A DNA stretch of 64,000 nucleotides from Candidatus Poribacteria bacterium. Its GTDB lineage: Bacteria; Poribacteria; WGA-4E; WGA-3G. The stretch covers positions 1 to 64,000 of the forward strand of contig JAPPII010000003.1 of assembly GCA_028820845.1 (NCBI GenBank), given 5' to 3'. A program made the position numbers and the translations under genes. The notes under the pieces are model-generated. The model was not told the DNA's origin, made no database searches, and was given only the letters and a program-made list of their open reading frames with translations. Positions 1,333 to 52,752 of this stretch are shown here, one piece after another. Numbering within the stretch: the stretch's first letter is position 1; every line of letters begins with the position of its first letter.

Positions 1333-2163
1333 TTAAAAGTCTTTCACGCATCGGAAACCGATTGTACTGCCGGATGAAAGGTGATACCATCGGTCTGCGA
1401 CTCGGAGATCCTCGGGTGCACCACCCCATCCGCCGCCTCGCAGGATACGGAAGTTCTCGTTATCGGGTGCCTGTTCTCTGCCGAAGCGCGGGTTATTCTG
1501 TGTGCTCAGGCTGTAGAATTCGTCGTTGTATTCGTCAAAGCACCATTCCCAGACATTGCCCGCCATATCGTATAGATTATAGCCGTTGGGCGGGAAGCTG
1601 CCAACCGGAGCTGTCCATTTCCATTTGTCCCTTTCACCTACGCCAGCCAAATTCGCATCTACATAAGTTATTATATCACCATTTGGGTATCGTTTGCCAA
1701 CTAGACCGCCACGTGCAGCGTATTCCCATTCCGCTTCAGTAGGCAACCGTTTGTTTGCCCACGCTGCATACGCGACTGCATCGCGCCAATTCATACGGAC
1801 AACGGGGGTATCAGGGGTATTGAAGCGCGGATTATGGGACAGTGGCGGTTGCGGATAACCTGTGCTTTCAACGAATTTCTGATAGCGATCATTCGTTACC
1901 TCATACATGTCCATGTAAAAGGCGTTGAGACTCACAGTATGCACGGGTTGCTCATCGCTATCGCCAATAGTGGAACCCATTTGAAACGTCCCTGCAGGAA
2001 TTAGGACCATTATGGCACCATCGACTTCGGAGATGATTTCTGTAAGGGGTTCAGTGGTAGGCTGAGAATCCTGCCCGCACGCAAAGCCACAGACGCTGAA
2101 GCAACAAATCAGAAATAAACCTGCTGCAGTACGCAATTTGCGGATTCTTGATACACCCGTCAT
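1333..2163 (-). CDS. SUMF1/formylglycine-generating-enzyme-like lipoprotein
   Basis: This is a 276-residue exported protein with a SUMF1 (FGE-sulfatase) domain, seen in GTFQMGS near the start, RLPTEAEWEYAARGG in the middle and RILRGGGWGG...GFRCV at the end. The N-terminus is hydrophobic and ends GFACGQ, a plausible though not textbook lipobox. The start is the ATG at 2163. It overlaps the selA stop as ATGA, so translation is probably coupled; a longer reading frame from 2202 would run inside selA. Catalytic FGE has a Cys pair in a GGS-LC-x4-C context. Here the segment after RGGGW has no such Cys, so I infer that it is not a working formylglycine generator and may be a binding or structural relative. 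Confidence 0.85.
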   Translation of the reverse strand: MTGVSRIRKLRTAAGLFLICCFSVCGFACGQDSQPTTEPLTEIISEVDGAIMVLIPAGTFQMGSTIGDSDEQPVHTVSLNAFYMDMYEVTNDRYQKFVESTGYPQPPLSHNPRFNTPDTPVVRMNWRDAVAYAAWANKRLPTEAEWEYAARGGLVGKRYPNGDIITYVDANLAGVGERDKWKWTAPVGSFPPNGYNLYDMAGNVWEWCFDEYNDEFYSLSTQNNPRFGREQAPDNENFRILRGGGWGGAPEDLRVADRWYHLSSGSTIGFRCVKDF

Positions 2164-3563
2164 AGCAGTTTTGCGACCTCTGTAGCGGTTTCGACTATCC
2201 AAGCCTGTTCTCTTTCATAGATAGTGCGGAGGTCCAGCCAAAAGCGGTCGTCCTTGATTCTGCCAATGACGGGAACTGTGGCATCTCGAAAATGTGAGGC
2301 GAGCAGTTCGGCGGAAACATCCAGCGGCTCAAGAACAAGCGCGACACTCGGTAAGGTCTCAACAGGGAGCGCGCCACTTCCAATCTGTCCGAAGGTCTCT
2401 GAAACCTGAATGCTAACTTTTTCGCCAAAGCGTTCTTGCAGTTGCGTTCTAAGTTCTGCTGCGACAGCGTGAAGCACCTCTACAGCGCGCGTATAGCGGT
2501 TAAGCATCGGGAACTGTTCTGTTATGGTTTCTCCACCAATGAGATAGCGTTGCAAGGTGGCTGACAAACCGGCGATGATGAGTTTATCTACCCGTAGCGC
2601 ACGCATCATCGGGTTCTTACGCATCTTTTCGATCCATTCCGACTTACCGACGATGATCCCTGCCTGCGGGCCGCCGAGTAGTTTGTCGCCGCTAAAAGTG
2701 ACGACATCAACGCCGCTGGCGATGCGTTCTCCGACGAGTGGCTCGTGCGGAAGACCATAAACCGTCATGTCAATGAGTGCACCACTTCCGAGATCCTCCA
2801 TTGTCGGGATGCCGTGCTGTGCGCCGAGTTCCGTTAATGCTTCCATCGTCGGCGTTGAAGTGAAGCCGAGGATTTTATAGTTGCTCGGATGCACCTTGAG
2901 CAACAATCCCGTATTTTCAGTGATAGCCTCGGCGTAATCTCGGAGATGCGTGCGGTTCGTCGTGCCGACTTCGCGAAGGACTGCCCCGCTTGCTGCCATC
3001 ACGTCAGGCACGCGGAATGCGCCACCGATCTCAATCAACTCTCCGCGTGAAACGATGACCTCCTTGCCGCGCGCCATTGTCTGGAGTGCAAGCAGGACTG
3101 CGGCGGCGTTGTTATTCACAACCGTGGATGCCTCACAACCAGTCAATTGTTGCAGGAGTGGCTCAGTGATTCTATCGCGATGTCCCCTTTCGCCTGTTGC
3201 GAGATCGTATTCAAGGTTAACGTAGTTTTGCGCCGCTTGTTGAATCGCTTCACAGGCAGCCGTGCTTAGCAACGATCTGCCTAAGTTGGTATGTGTAACC
3301 GTGCCGGTTGCATTGACCACAGGACGCATGCGTGCCCCAATCTTTTCCACGATTTTCTGGCGCGTCTGTTCGGCATATTCGGTATGTTCTGGGAGTTGTT
3401 CGAGATCCCCACTTAGAATACTGCTTCGGACATCCGCGACGACGGCGCGGAGTGCCCCTGTCACGAGCGGGCGGGCGTAAGTGTCCTGCAAGTCGAGCAT
3501 CTCCTGTGTGTTTAGGAGATTTTCGATGGCGGGCAATTGCCGGAGGAGGGTTTTATCTATCAT
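2160..3563 (-). CDS. selA: L-seryl-tRNA(Sec) selenium transferase
   Basis: SelA is a pyridoxal-phosphate enzyme that converts seryl-tRNA(Sec) to selenocysteinyl-tRNA(Sec) using selenophosphate. The 467-residue length is usual. The N-terminus has the typical RQLPAIENLL. The PVVNATGTVTHTNLGRSLL stretch is near residues 81-99, and the PLP-binding lysine is in SGDKLLGGPQ (about K294). The gene is followed directly by the SUMF1 lipoprotein through an ATGA overlap. No selB, selD or tRNA-Sec gene is visible in the window. A UGA-containing selenoprotein is present at 50968-51720, so selenocysteine is evidently used in this genome. Confidence 0.96.
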   Translation of the reverse strand: MIDKTLLRQLPAIENLLNTQEMLDLQDTYARPLVTGALRAVVADVRSSILSGDLEQLPEHTEYAEQTRQKIVEKIGARMRPVVNATGTVTHTNLGRSLLSTAACEAIQQAAQNYVNLEYDLATGERGHRDRITEPLLQQLTGCEASTVVNNNAAAVLLALQTMARGKEVIVSRGELIEIGGAFRVPDVMAASGAVLREVGTTNRTHLRDYAEAITENTGLLLKVHPSNYKILGFTSTPTMEALTELGAQHGIPTMEDLGSGALIDMTVYGLPHEPLVGERIASGVDVVTFSGDKLLGGPQAGIIVGKSEWIEKMRKNPMMRALRVDKLIIAGLSATLQRYLIGGETITEQFPMLNRYTRAVEVLHAVAAELRTQLQERFGEKVSIQVSETFGQIGSGALPVETLPSVALVLEPLDVSAELLASHFRDATVPVIGRIKDDRFWLDLRTIYEREQAWIVETATEVAKLL

Positions 3564-45847: not shown

Positions 45848-48565
45848 ATGGACTATGATTTTACTACTGTCGCGCGATTGCCTGCCCCAGATGATAACGT
45901 CGGTATCGCCACACAAACACTCGAACGCGGCACACGCATCCGTCATAACAGACAGCAGTTTGAACTATCGCATACTATTTTAGAGGGCCACCGATTCGCT
46001 ATCCAACCGATTTCAGAAGCCGCGCCTCTCCTATCGTGGGGACTGCCATTCGGTTACGCCACACGTGTCATTGACCCCGGCGATTACGTGTGTAATCAGA
46101 AAATGATTGACTCCCTGTCCATTAGAAACCTCCCTTTCGCTCTGCCAGAGGTACCTAATTTCAGTGATAAAATGGCACCATACGCGTTAAATGAAGCCGA
46201 ATTTCGTCCGGGGAAACAGGTGCCGCGTCATGCAGATGAACGAAATTTTCTCGGTTATCGTCGTCCCGGTAACCGTGGTGTCGGCACACGAAACTATATC
46301 GTCGTCATGGGAACGACCTCACGCACCTCCGGTTTCGCGAGAAGACTCGCCGATATGTGTGCAGTAGGAGGGGTTTGTAACCCCGATACACTTCCTAATG
46401 TAGATGGGGTCGTTGCTGTAACACATACGGAAGGCGGTGAAGGCAAAACACCGAATAACATTGACATATTGCTCCGGACGCTTGCCGGTTTCACCGTCCA
46501 TCCGAATATCGGTGCGATGCTGCTCGTTGACTACGGCACTGAGGCGGTTACAAATGAAATGCTTCAGTCATATATGCAGCACGAAGGCTACGCTTTAGAT
46601 GATGTCACCCACCGTTTCTATCGGTTACAAGGAAGTTTTGATGAAGATTTAGCCAACGGCGCGGAGATTATTAAGGGATGGTTGAACGGCGTAAACAGCG
46701 TCCCACGCACTGAGCAATCTCTGGAAAACCTTAAAATCGCCTTACAGTGCGGCGGTTCTGATGCCTTCTCTGGCATCTCCGGCAATCCGCTTGCCGCTTA
46801 CGTCGCCAAAGAGGTTATCCGCTACGGTGGTTGTGCTAACCTCGCAGAAACAGACGAACTCATCGGTTCGGAGGCGTATGTGCTTCAAAACGTCCGAGAC
46901 CTGAACACTGCACGCACGTTCCTTGATACAATTGAACGTTTCAAGGAGCGGGTCTCATGGCACGGACACTCCGCAGAAGGCAATCCGTCTGGGGGTAATA
47001 ACTTCCGTGGACTCTATAACATCGCTATTAAATCCATCGGCGCAGCGATGAAACGACATCCGGATGTCTGTCTCGATTACGTCATTGACTATAGCCGACT
47101 GATGGAAAATCCGGGCTACTACTTCATGGACAGTCCCGGCAACGATTTAGAGAGTATCGCCGGACAGGTAGCGTCTGGCTCTAACATGATTTTCTTCGTG
47201 ACTGGCAACGGTTCAATTACCAATTTTCCCTTCGTCCCGACGCTTAAAATTGTCACGACAACCGGACGCTATGAAATGCTTACCAAAGATATGGACGTGA
47301 ATGCTGGGGCGTATCTCGACGGCACACCGATGGAGACACTCGGTGAAGCAATGCTCGACTTGACGGTGGATGTTGCGTCGGGTGAACAGTCGGTCGGTGA
47401 GAAGGCGGGACATTCTCAAGTCTCTCTGTGGCGGGATTGGAAGCAGACAGGTCCCGTAGATTTAGACCCCTTATTGATAGAATCCGAATTGAAGTCCGGT
47501 GAACCAATCGCAATTGAAACCGCCTCGGTGGACACGAACACACCGGCGCTGCAATTCCGTGCACTCCAAACGGAAACTGGATACCGTACGGATCAACTCG
47601 GACTTATCCTACCGACAAGCCTCTGTTCAGGACAGATCGCACAGATGATTGCACACCGTTGCAATGAACAGAAGATTGGTAAGGAACAAGGGGTATCCCG
47701 TTTTGTTGCGCTTCCACACACAGAAGGGTGTGGTGTCTCCAGTGGACGTTCTGAAGAAATTTACACCCGTACGATGATTGGACACCTCACACATCCGACG
47801 GTTGCTCTCGGTCTACTCCTTGAGCACGGTTGCGAAAAGACACACAACGACCACGTCCGGCACGAAATTCAGCAACTCGGTATATCACCAGAACGCTACG
47901 GATGGGCAAGCGTCCAATTGGACGGTGGCATTGATGCCGTTATTGACAAGGTACAAGACTGGTTTTCAGAGGAACTCGCGAATAAGCCATCTGTTCCCAT
48001 TGTCGATGCGGGATTAGAACACCTCTGCATCGCTGTAACATCAACCGGTGAAGCGACAGAAGAAGTCTCGGAGTCTCTGACGCCATTGACGCACAGGGTG
48101 GTCGCTGCGGGTGGAACGGTTGTCGTGCCGGGGAATGCGGGATGGCTGTCAGCAGTCGGCTGTCAGCAGTCAGTAATTCTTCTGGCGGATTCATCGGGAA
48201 CTGTTACGCCGACATTAGCATACGGACAGCGAGTCGAGAAAGCCGGTCTCCATATCATGGAGACCCCGACAGATCAGCCGACAGAGACGTTGACAGGGTT
48301 GGGGGCGACGGGTGTGGATTTGGCACTTGCGCACATCGTTGGTGCTCCTTTGCAATCGCACGTGATGGTGCCGCTGATTCAGGTCTCTACAGATGCTGCA
48401 ACGCAAACCGCCTACGGTGCGGACCTGGATCTGACGACTGCTGATGTTGACGAGTTATTGGCGTTGATTGTGGAGGTGGCTTCGCGGCAGTATACACCGA
48501 AACTGCACGGTAAGGGAAATACGGATTTTCAGTTGACGCGAGGGCTACTTGGGATTTCTATGTGA
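45848..48565 (+). CDS. UxaA-family (altronate/galactarate dehydratase-like) protein, long form
   Basis: 905 residues, about twice a normal UxaA. An N-terminal SAF-like domain (TQTLERGTRI, LSHTILEGHRF) is followed by the dehydratase core (GYRRPGNRGVGTRNYIVVMG, VAVTHTEGGEG, NPSGGN). A second related half (RYGWASVQLDG; HTEGCGVSSGR; LLLEHGCEKTHNDH) comes after residue 560. These enzymes dehydrate sugar acids using Fe or Mn. Repeat DNA found elsewhere in the window is read in frame at 46364-46387 (VGGVCNPD) and 48144-48171. The start is behind GGAGG. Confidence 0.85.
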   Translation: MDYDFTTVARLPAPDDNVGIATQTLERGTRIRHNRQQFELSHTILEGHRFAIQPISEAAPLLSWGLPFGYATRVIDPGDYVCNQKMIDSLSIRNLPFALPEVPNFSDKMAPYALNEAEFRPGKQVPRHADERNFLGYRRPGNRGVGTRNYIVVMGTTSRTSGFARRLADMCAVGGVCNPDTLPNVDGVVAVTHTEGGEGKTPNNIDILLRTLAGFTVHPNIGAMLLVDYGTEAVTNEMLQSYMQHEGYALDDVTHRFYRLQGSFDEDLANGAEIIKGWLNGVNSVPRTEQSLENLKIALQCGGSDAFSGISGNPLAAYVAKEVIRYGGCANLAETDELIGSEAYVLQNVRDLNTARTFLDTIERFKERVSWHGHSAEGNPSGGNNFRGLYNIAIKSIGAAMKRHPDVCLDYVIDYSRLMENPGYYFMDSPGNDLESIAGQVASGSNMIFFVTGNGSITNFPFVPTLKIVTTTGRYEMLTKDMDVNAGAYLDGTPMETLGEAMLDLTVDVASGEQSVGEKAGHSQVSLWRDWKQTGPVDLDPLLIESELKSGEPIAIETASVDTNTPALQFRALQTETGYRTDQLGLILPTSLCSGQIAQMIAHRCNEQKIGKEQGVSRFVALPHTEGCGVSSGRSEEIYTRTMIGHLTHPTVALGLLLEHGCEKTHNDHVRHEIQQLGISPERYGWASVQLDGGIDAVIDKVQDWFSEELANKPSVPIVDAGLEHLCIAVTSTGEATEEVSESLTPLTHRVVAAGGTVVVPGNAGWLSAVGCQQSVILLADSSGTVTPTLAYGQRVEKAGLHIMETPTDQPTETLTGLGATGVDLALAHIVGAPLQSHVMVPLIQVSTDAATQTAYGADLDLTTADVDELLALIVEVASRQYTPKLHGKGNTDFQLTRGLLGISM
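46364..46387 (+). repeat. Palindromic repeat core inside the UxaA coding sequence
   Basis: 24 bases are identical to the core of units 2 and 3 of the array at 36011-36083, including the GGGGTT-TGT-AACCCC hairpin. Read in frame it gives VGGVCNPD. Confidence 0.75.
48144..48171 (+). repeat. 14-bp tandem duplication inside the UxaA coding sequence
   Basis: GGCTGTCAGCAGTC occurs twice back to back. It is of the GGCTGT-CAGC type found between genes at 25014-25103 and 38375-38450. In frame it encodes WLSAVGCQQS, where a smooth family alignment may be broken. Confidence 0.6.
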
Positions 48566-49857: not shown

Positions 49858-50919
49858 CTACAGCGGCAACGAAATCGGTGCGCCGATTTGGGAAGAACGA
49901 TACGTCGCCTCTGCCAACTCGATACCGTCTCTACCGATACGTCCATGCGTTGTCGGTTCCGCTTCACCGGCGATACACTGGAGCCAATGGTCGATGCTTG
50001 TCCCTTTTGCCGCAACACCCCAATACCGCTGCTGCCGCCGTTCCTCTGGCATGTTGCGATAGGTGTCGTCGTCTGGGACCGGCGCAGTGAATTCTTCTGC
50101 TTCCGCCATATCGTGCGTTTTCCAGCGGAGTCCATGCCGAATCAGCGTCGCAGACCCGTTGCTTGCCACGAGACCATTGCCACTGTTCCCAATCTCAGCT
50201 GCCCAACTCTTAATCATCATCCCGACCCCGCCGTTCTTGAAATGCACTGTCAGGACAGCGTTGTTCTCGACGGCTTGGTCAGGTGGTGGATAGGTGCCAC
50301 CGAGTGGAACGTGGCTTGTGAACCCGTAGACAGTCGAGGCGGGACCGTAGAGCCACAACCAGATATCGAGATTGTGAATCGCCTGCTCCACCAACATCCC
50401 ACCAGATTCTGCTTTCACAAAAAGCCACGGATGTCGTTCAGGTGAAAAATAACCGACCTGATTAGAATACGCCATCTGCAGCGTGCCAAGCGTGCCATCG
50501 TCCAATAGCGACTTCAGCTTCATGTACCCCGGATCGAACCGCATCATATAGGCGACCATCAGGAGGACACCTGCATTTTCAGCAGCGGTGACCATCTCGT
50601 CACCCTCGGCGACGTTGCAACACATCGGCTTCTCCATCAAGATGTGTTTGCCAGCAGCGGTCGCAGCGCGGGTAATCTCAAGGTGAGGGCGCGGATGGGC
50701 ACAGACATCCACTGCGTCTATATCTTGTCTGTCAAGGAGGGCGCGGTAATCCGTATAAGCATCTGCCCCGAATAGGTCTGCCTGTTCATTCGCAGATGCT
50801 TCATTGATATCGGCGATCGCGACAATGTCTGCGCGGCGTGTCGGTTCTTGGTAATACGGGGCGTGGAGGTTGCGAAAAATACCGCCGCATCCGATGATGC
50901 CAACTCTGAGTTTATCCAT
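49858..50919 (-). CDS. Gfo/Idh/MocA-family oxidoreductase
   Basis: 353 residues. The N-terminal Rossmann domain has VGIIGCGGIFRN, then VDVCAHPRPHLEI, and KHILMEKPM (the conserved E-K-P). The C-terminal alpha/beta domain has PGYMKLKSLLDDG and MLVEQAIHNLDIWLWLYG, with a His that usually binds the sugar. Substrates are sugars or inositols. It is the last of three genes with a selenoprotein in the middle. Confidence 0.92.
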   Translation of the reverse strand: MDKLRVGIIGCGGIFRNLHAPYYQEPTRRADIVAIADINEASANEQADLFGADAYTDYRALLDRQDIDAVDVCAHPRPHLEITRAATAAGKHILMEKPMCCNVAEGDEMVTAAENAGVLLMVAYMMRFDPGYMKLKSLLDDGTLGTLQMAYSNQVGYFSPERHPWLFVKAESGGMLVEQAIHNLDIWLWLYGPASTVYGFTSHVPLGGTYPPPDQAVENNAVLTVHFKNGGVGMMIKSWAAEIGNSGNGLVASNGSATLIRHGLRWKTHDMAEAEEFTAPVPDDDTYRNMPEERRQQRYWGVAAKGTSIDHWLQCIAGEAEPTTHGRIGRDGIELAEATYRSSQIGAPISLPL

Positions 50920-50954: not shown

Positions 50955-50985
50955 GTAGTAGGGCAATTCATTGCCCGTTCCCTAC
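50955..50985. repeat. Palindrome GGGCAAT-TC-ATTGCCC overlapping a stop codon
   Basis: Arms at 50961-50967 and 50970-50976, flanked by TAG and CCTAC. The stop TGA and last codons of the selenoprotein gene (VGNGQ) lie in it. Confidence 0.6.
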
Positions 50986-51720
50986 ATCAAATGTATCCAC
51001 CACCTTAAAAATAGGAGGTTCCGCCGTATCCTCTAAGAGCGCGAGTGCTTCAGCGATGATTGCGTGCTGCAATTCTGGGTTGTTCGGCTCGCCGAGCGGA
51101 TGTCCGAAAGGGTATGGAACTGCTAATGCGCGCGGCGGTTTTACCCGCCGCGTAATATCTTCAATCAGCGTGATCGAGACCGTAGAAATTCTCGCCGCTT
51201 CAACAGCACGTTGGATCAGTCCTACAGACTGATTGCACATCGGTCAGACAGGCGTTAAGAACGCCACATCTACACCATCAACTTTAAGCAACTCTCCAAC
51301 TTCAGGCGCGGTTTGCGTAATGAGGGGTTTCGGGTTTACAATAGATCCCATAAAACTGAAGTGTCTATGGTTTAGCGATCCGATTTTACCTTCGGTCTCT
51401 AATTCCCTGAACCTATCAAGCGGAAACGCAAGGTTCGGATCCGTTTCGAGACCCCTTTCATCGTAAGCCGCACTTTTATGTCCATTGATGAGTGCTTGTG
51501 TCTGAATTGAATTGGGAATCTCGCGGTATGAACAATCTCCGCTCTCAAAAGGGTCCTGCCCATGCAGAAAAAAACCGGCAGTCGTAATGAGAGCGACTTT
51601 ACATTCGTTCAACGGTAAATGCAGCGGCGTGTGAGGAGACGTTCCATAGTGCTTGCCGCGGTAAAGCTTCATAAAGAATCGAGAAAGGGAATCAAGTTTA
51701 CGTAAGGGTGCCATACACAT
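50968..51720 (-). CDS. GrdB-family selenoprotein with in-frame UGA (Sec)
   Basis: One frame of 250 codons with a single internal TGA at 51246-51244 (residue 159). It reads FLTPV-U-PMCNQSVGLIQRA, a U-x2-C redox motif in the place where selenoprotein B of glycine/betaine/sarcosine/D-proline reductases has Sec. Sequence continues in phase after it to GEPNNPELQHAIIAEALALL. A SECIS-like hairpin (51215-51233) follows ten bases after UGA. Treated as two genes it would be two truncated proteins; treated as one it is complete. It sits between two Gfo/Idh genes, six bases after the first. The usual partner subunits of the reductase are not in view. Confidence 0.86.
51215..51233 (-). promoter_or_regulatory. 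SECIS-like hairpin after the UGA codon
   Basis: In the transcript, AUCAGUC-UGUAG-GACUGAU forms a seven-base-pair stem with a five-base loop. The loop begins 17 bases after UGA, within the range seen for bacterial SECIS elements that recruit SelB. Confidence 0.7.
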
Positions 51721-51726
51721 CTCATA

Positions 51727-52752
51727 TTAGCCGTTTGCAAAGATAAGCCGTTTTCGATTCTGACACGGGAGTTCTATTGTTTGTCCGGTGATGCCGCTCT
51801 CAATTGTAGCGAATCCAATTTCATTAACAGCGGTATAATCATCGCGTGCACAATCAGGCAATACTCCTCCATTTAAGTAATCCGTAATCTGTTTGTACGC
51901 AACTTTAAATGGACTGGCGTTTTCAGGCAGATCAAGGGTAGCGTTATCAACCAACTTCCCGTCTTTGTGGACAGTCGTGCTGCTGTAGAACCCCGTCTGA
52001 ACGCTACCTTCACTGCCAAGGACATCCACAGAGAATCCGCCTCGCGCCCCGTGATTCCCGACATGGAAACCGATAACACCGCTCTCATATCGGATTGTTG
52101 AACCCACAATCGCGGGTTCAGGTTCATAAGGCTCCGGTACATCTCCACTCCCTTCAACGAACCCAGTTACCGAAATCGGATCATAACCGGCAAACTGACA
52201 AATCATGTCCGTCGTGTGGATAGCGAAAGAAAGCACACCGCCACCGCAATACCCGATAACAGTCTGTACCTCACCGATTAACCCGTCTTTGATAAGCGAT
52301 TGGAGACGGATAAGGTGTGGTCCCCAGTGCCGTGTATAGTCCACAACGATAGGAATGCCTTTCGCGTCAGCACCTGCGGTCATGGCATCGACTTCTTCAA
52401 GCGAACACCCGGCGGGTTTTTCGAGGAAGATGGCTTTGATGTCTGCCTTCAGAACATTCTGCATCACCTTGAAATGGTGGGGTCCGCGGACACAGACAGC
52501 AACGATGTCCAAATCCTCACTCTCAAGCATCTGCGTGTCCGTCTCGTAATAGCTTATAGAATTATCTGGGAAAGCGGGTCCCCAAACCTGTTGGAATTCT
52601 GCTTGGCGTTCCGAGGACATGTCTGCAACTGCAACCAATTCAGTCGTTTCACAAAAACGGATACCACCTGTATGGCAATACGGATAAGGATCGTCTGGTG
52701 TTGAATAACGGGAGGCAATACTACCCAACCCGATGATACCGACACGATACAT
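51727..52752 (-). CDS. Gfo/Idh/MocA-family oxidoreductase
   Basis: 341 residues. VGIIGLGSIASRY is the NAD-binding start, FLEKPAGCSLEEV has the E-K-P motif, and FAIHTTDMICQFAGYD carries the sugar-site His. It begins the operon with the selenoprotein. A TATACT box at 52791-52796 (minus strand, with a weak -35) is a possible promoter. Confidence 0.9.
   Translation of the reverse strand: MYRVGIIGLGSIASRYSTPDDPYPYCHTGGIRFCETTELVAVADMSSERQAEFQQVWGPAFPDNSISYYETDTQMLESEDLDIVAVCVRGPHHFKVMQNVLKADIKAIFLEKPAGCSLEEVDAMTAGADAKGIPIVVDYTRHWGPHLIRLQSLIKDGLIGEVQTVIGYCGGGVLSFAIHTTDMICQFAGYDPISVTGFVEGSGDVPEPYEPEPAIVGSTIRYESGVIGFHVGNHGARGGFSVDVLGSEGSVQTGFYSSTTVHKDGKLVDNATLDLPENASPFKVAYKQITDYLNGGVLPDCARDDYTAVNEIGFATIESGITGQTIELPCQNRKRLIFANG

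Follow-up and report, generated by a model that had tools for sequence, protein, structure and literature searches.

Organization of the locus

The window, which denotes the whole stretch of 64,000 nucleotides analyzed here, stems from a Candidatus Poribacteria bacterium, a sponge symbiont, whose assembled genome (G000, with the window on contig G000:C3) has a size of 5.69 Mb and is 95.5% complete. On the minus strand, two open reading frames of 158 aa (51720..51244) and 90 aa (51240..50968) lie in the same phase and are separated by a lone TGA. When this TGA is read as selenocysteine (Sec), a product of 250 aa with the site FLTPV-U-PMCNQSVGL is obtained. The arrangement of two same-phase frames around a V-U-P-M-C site had been proposed in a first-pass annotation of the DNA, together with the warning that automatic calling would report two broken genes, and both points agree with the ORFs and their read-through translation.

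Most homologues begin at the equivalent of the third codon with the pattern M-A-x-x-x, and the start is hence probably ATG 51714 (MAPLRK...) rather than 51720, as judged from this comparison. The C-terminal stop of near-identical neighbours is TAA, TAG or TGA at about the same place, and because of this variation the internal TGA alone can be taken as a Sec codon. Three genomes show two TGAs (L042, L045, L047); the idea of a second Sec there was rejected, as the extra TGA falls just 5' of the start codon. The gene is located between two genes of the Gfo/Idh/MocA oxidoreductase type, as had been stated from the letters alone, with PF01408 found in both. The selA gene is encoded in the same window, also as previously claimed, but it is unlinked, being about 48 kb away from the selenoprotein operon (Table 1).

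Table 1. Features of the selenoprotein locus and of selA in the window.
Feature	Position	Strand	Remarks
PrdB-like selenoprotein gene	50968..51720	-	likely conserved start ATG 51714; terminal TGA stop 50970-50968
In-frame TGA read as Sec, U159 (numbered from 51720), U-P-M-C motif	51244..51246	-	63/63 covering Poribacteria homologues; alignment with annotated Sec of PrdB and GrdB
Bacterial SECIS-like element	51208..51240	-	upper stem 51215-51233, loop GUA (or UGUAG), weaker lower stem
Upstream Gfo/Idh/MocA oxidoreductase, 341 aa, cluster c2	51727..52752	-	PF01408 2.4e-14; stop 6 nt before ATG 51720
Downstream Gfo/Idh/MocA oxidoreductase, 353 aa, cluster c1	49858..50919	-	PF01408 4.6e-31, PF02894 2.3e-17; 48 nt past selenoprotein stop
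selA, selenocysteine synthase	2160..3563	-	TIGR00474 593.5 bits, cut-off 267.9

Evidence for translation of the UGA codon

A homologue of the selenoprotein is present in 79 of the 193 genomes searched. All Poribacteria homologues that cover the site, counted from the homologue list, carry TGA at the same codon, with TAA, TAG or a Trp codon in none of the 63, and the same TGA also occurs in homologues of other phyla. Purifying selection is equally strong on both sides of this codon (Ka/Ks 0.096 before vs 0.098 after the TGA; 253 same-genus gene pairs). In the alignment, the Sec column coincides exactly with the Sec of the PrdB proteins of Terrisporobacter and Peptoclostridium and with that of GrdB, and it is occupied by Cys in PrdB of Enterococcus gilvus, in the lone proteins of Roseomonas and Haematobacter and in one further homologue (L085).

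In two relatives (L083, L087), the Sec position is taken by Gly or Ser and the Cys three residues further on is absent; neither of the two genomes has a SelB above the cut-off. These two proteins are possibly non-redox descendants of the family, and some homologues thus work, or decay, without the redox residue. Another homologue (L075, genome G076) contains a second in-frame TGA at an Arg position (VLPIDULAEL), which looks more like a CGA-to-TGA change or an error than like Sec.

Within the hairpin, the stem AUCAGUC/GACUGAU comprises 7 bp (8 if a U-G pair is included) and begins 10 nt past the TGA, as the first-pass annotation had it; the loop follows 17 nt past the UGA and has a G among its first two bases. 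Across 26 diverse sequences, 95.7% of the cells of the 8-bp stem are paired, compared to 90.3% in shuffled alignments (0/500) and at most 51% when the stem is slid, and both sides have changed in 12 cells vs 3.9 in the shuffles. Such two-sided changes were found at the pairs 15-31 (U-A to C-G), 18-28 (G-C to A-U) and 19-27 (U-A to A-U), arise partly via amino-acid replacements (Ile/Val, Ser/Thr) and belong to a covariation that spans phyla. At pair 18-28, the Poribacteria families f1 and f4 have 26 GU, 15 AU and 13 GC and never the forbidden A-C (Fisher p 0.011, with the sequences being related and not independent). Compared with random synonymous codons, the native region has on average the more stable fold (mean z -1.45, with p below 0.05 in 20 of 69 sequences). 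Folding of the single sequence gave the hairpin region a weak z-score (-0.86), in place of which the comparative tests were relied on, and an Rfam search returned no bacterial SECIS family at the hairpin and one chance match only. As far as sequence comparison can demonstrate it, the predicted SECIS-like hairpin is under selection within the coding sequence.

The genome also encodes the decoding machinery. Besides selA, a tRNA-Sec (78.1 bits; ARAGORN anticodon UCA (TCA)) lies 40-odd nt from selB (351 bits) on contig C124, and selD (363 bits) is located on contig C123, so that all three genes that the first-pass annotation had wanted looked up (selB, selD and selC) are in place. Among the 63 genomes with the selenoprotein, SelB exceeds the cut-off in 59, the remaining four being 81-83% complete. 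The selD gene (L018, G000:C123:5786-6709) itself has an in-frame TGA, and the selenophosphate synthetase of this organism is therefore probably a selenoprotein too.

Taken together, TGA conservation, the Ka/Ks ratios, the Sec/Cys alignment, the hairpin and the decoding machinery are five lines which demonstrate, from comparative evidence, that the minus-strand gene 51720..50968 encodes a genuine selenoprotein whose UGA is translated. The initial proposal of a recoded UGA is thereby upheld, including the alignment of its Sec with that of GrdB and PrdB proteins, and neither the Trp nor the stop in homologues that would have spoken against it was encountered among the covering Poribacteria sequences. 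The two ORFs seen by a standard caller would equally suit a broken gene, with the TGA as a nonsense mutation, a sequencing error or a Trp codon. However, independently assembled genomes of 63 Poribacteria share the identical TGA, which also recurs in other phyla, purifying selection persists beyond it, redox-competent relatives have Cys and never Trp in its place, and the genome carries selC, selB, selD and selA; this explanation is already contradicted, and we regard its probability as negligible.

Relationship to PrdB and GrdB

The family of glycine and proline reductases has been summarized elsewhere (PMC13188914). In relation to its members, the selenoprotein is a superfamily-level homologue of the Pfam family GRDB (PF07355; 35.1 vs a gathering threshold of 22 bits), matching model positions 222-345 of 347 only. 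The best NCBIfam model is TIGR04483 (PrdB), whose equivalog cut-off of 300 bits lies well above the 158.7 bits obtained, and the GrdB models TIGR01917 and TIGR01918 yield 45.5 and 49.5 bits vs cut-offs of 602 and 65. The protein thus fails the curated cut-offs of all named reductases, and the whole homologue set behaves alike.

With PrdB, a protein of about 240 aa, it shares the UxxC motif and the Sec in the same alignment column, and the identity to PrdB of Terrisporobacter, Peptoclostridium and Acetoanaerobium is 36-40% over about 185 aa, i.e., about three quarters of the protein. In contrast, the motif reads AG-U-GTCHR in PrdB and PV-U-PxCNQ in the lone proteins, and true prdB loci adjoin prdA, prdC and a CBO2463-type gene, none of which accompanies the Poribacteria selenoprotein. 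GrdB, GrdF and GrdH (PF07355) are homologous through their C-terminal half, with the Sec aligned; the N-terminal half, the UxxCxxC motif and a GrdE or GrdA/C context are missing from the selenoprotein and its surroundings, and the scores are far under the cut-offs. The description as a complete GrdB-family protein was therefore right with regard to PF07355 homology and Sec alignment but not with regard to completeness, since the product is PrdB-sized (250 aa vs about 430 aa in full-length GrdB), matches the C-terminal half of GrdB only and is nearer to PrdB. Being homologous to PrdB at the same residue, yet failing the tests for that family, it is not assignable as PrdB either.

A tree of 34 sequences, computed by a quick method with two long rows included and rooted at the midpoint, has a branch with an SH-aLRT value of 97 that splits the lone proteins, from Poribacteria and several other phyla, from PrdB and GrdB; a single lone sequence (L084) falls on the side of PrdB. 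The lone clade includes proteins that NCBI names 'glycine/sarcosine/betaine reductase selenoprotein B family protein', such as those of Roseomonas and Haematobacter plasmids, which are likewise encoded by lone genes without reductase partners; they differ by Cys in place of Sec and by SelO, CobO and aminotransferase genes as neighbours. By these comparisons, the selenoprotein is PrdB-like, nearer to PrdB than to GrdB and placed outside the PrdB/GrdB clade. A phmmer search against solved structures returned no relative, and the matches of a profile search, one to a designed protein and the other to a P-loop protein, were judged to be due to chance. An AlphaFold2 model built on 19 close sequences reached a pLDDT of 48, for which Foldseek found nothing below E 0.1, and was rejected as evidence.

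Conservation of the three-gene arrangement

Of the 33 loci of family f1, 28 preserve the gene order of the window (Gfo/Idh of cluster c2, selenoprotein, Gfo/Idh of cluster c1), while three more keep c1 and one keeps c2. Median identity to the copies in the window is 92% for c1 and 91% for c2, whereas the identity between c1 and c2 is just 26%. The outer flanks vary and include secreted repeat proteins, a UxaA-like dehydratase, an HpcH aldolase and others. In two loci of genus g3 (L093, L104), a type ISP restriction-modification gene (~1,070-1,100 aa) is situated between the upstream Gfo/Idh gene and the selenoprotein. A 905-aa fused UxaA/GarD-type dehydratase with each domain present twice is encoded at 45848-48565, and such a gene lies near the operon in 13 loci.

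The Poribacteria families f3 and f4 and also members in other phyla have different genes instead of the Gfo/Idh pair next to the selenoprotein, and a common partner was not seen outside family f1, the neighbours including FMN_dh, cyclase, PhyH, Ldh_2 and NAD_kinase genes. The pair can consequently not be a universal partner, and the trio is an arrangement at the family level. In family f4 (L088-L090, L101-L103), a gene of the malate/L-lactate dehydrogenase family (Ldh_2) adjoins the selenoprotein on the opposite strand, and an Ldh family gene is also found near a lone prdB of Peptoclostridium acidaminophilum (L116). Since genes of the Gfo/Idh type are plentiful in Poribacteria, their position next to the selenoprotein says little about the substrate.

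Possible function of the lone selenoprotein

It is established for glycine and proline reductase that the amine is bound by a pyruvoyl group and that the carbon thus activated is attacked by the Sec of subunit B. The pyruvoyl subunits PrdA and GrdE belong to PF09338, which was searched for in the 193 genomes and found in four, all of them outside the Poribacteria. It is absent from the genome under study and from every Poribacteria genome tested, which agrees with the earlier view of a lone gene without the other reductase subunits. From our point of view, this makes it very improbable that the protein acts as one subunit of a classical reductase for D-proline, glycine, sarcosine or betaine, with the other subunits absent from the assembly, because PF09338 is also missing from six single-contig Poribacteria genomes (G005, G010, G022, G029, G044, G066). 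PrdB being the top family model and the alignment of Sec and motif with PrdB would fit such a subunit; however, the PrdB cut-off is reached in 0 of the 193 genomes and the lone members stand apart in the tree.

We infer instead a Sec/Cys reductase that operates without a pyruvoyl partner, and the reading that we moderately favour is that the selenoprotein is functional, belongs to a PrdB-like subfamily whose members stand alone and carries out a reductive step on the product of the flanking dehydrogenases, the latter probably being the source of its substrate. The main rival to such a carbonyl-substrate reductase is a general redox role for U-x-x-C, namely that a real selenoprotein serves in thiol-disulfide or (hydro)peroxide chemistry without carbon-heteroatom cleavage and is adjacent to the Gfo/Idh genes due to shared regulation only. 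UxxC is indeed the motif of thioredoxin-like redox proteins, and the lone subfamily is widespread with a common partner in one family only. Nevertheless, the homology is to the catalytic half of PrdB and GrdB and not to thioredoxin, and the trio is kept despite changing outer flanks and the restriction-modification insertion in two genomes, so that we consider this role a serious contender but the less probable one.

For the favoured reductive step, a mechanism can be imagined in which SelB, with Sec-tRNA, would place Sec where a helix begins after a beta strand. Attack of the U-x-x-C selenolate on an electrophilic substrate could then yield an intermediate, either Se-substrate or selenylsulfide, which the Cys three residues further on might resolve before a thioredoxin-type donor re-reduces the protein. 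As no pyruvoyl group is available to activate an amine, the substrate would have to be pre-activated, and its likeliest source may be a keto compound of the sugar or cyclitol type formed by the two NAD-dependent Gfo/Idh enzymes encoded in the same operon. The selenoprotein would in that case be responsible for the reduction within a short pathway of catabolism or detoxification. In its most specific form, a pyruvoyl-independent selenolate reductase in which an activated keto-sugar or keto-cyclitol comes from the Gfo/Idh enzymes and Sec strips a carbonyl-adjacent substituent by direct nucleophilic attack, this proposal is speculative and rather unlikely.

Relation to earlier catalogues and implications

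In the Sargasso Sea, 'PrdB' with UxxC was the third commonest selenoprotein family with 42 genes (PMC1088965), and with 235 genes it was among the top families of the GOS data (PMC2398784); in these marine sets, the Sec forms outnumber the Cys forms (PMC1088965, PMC2398784). This kind of protein, catalogued in ocean metagenomes since 2005, was hence already known. The catalogued proteins resemble ours in being marine, in having UxxC and in being treated as PrdB without partners shown, but the relevant parts of both reports give no assignment to Poribacteria, no Gfo/Idh operon and no split from true PrdB (PMC1088965, PMC2398784). Going by these descriptions rather than by sequence comparison, they probably represent the same lone subfamily. 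Our literature search found no paper on Poribacteria selenoproteins, a lone PrdB, a separable lone subfamily or the conserved trio operon. The idea that the role is an undescribed one accordingly stands for a lone subfamily without an assigned function, but has to be qualified, as UxxC 'PrdB' is common in the oceans and NCBI names relatives that lack Sec. The superfamily and its decoding were known before; our additions are the recognition of the lone proteins as a subfamily of their own and of the Gfo/Idh trio as a conserved unit.

Overall, the locus provides a worked example of a gene that standard calling would split, and its conserved three-gene unit offers a concrete co-expression set and a short list of candidate substrate classes. 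The oceanic 'PrdB' had been described with the D-proline reductase reaction; since the members from Poribacteria and several other phyla branch separately and lack the pyruvoyl subunit which that reaction requires, D-proline reductase activity is unlikely for them. If the pyruvoyl-independent reductase proposed here is real, it would represent a selenium-dependent pathway of the carbohydrate type in sponge symbionts and could serve as a template for understanding the orphan 'PrdB' selenoproteins that are so abundant in the ocean.
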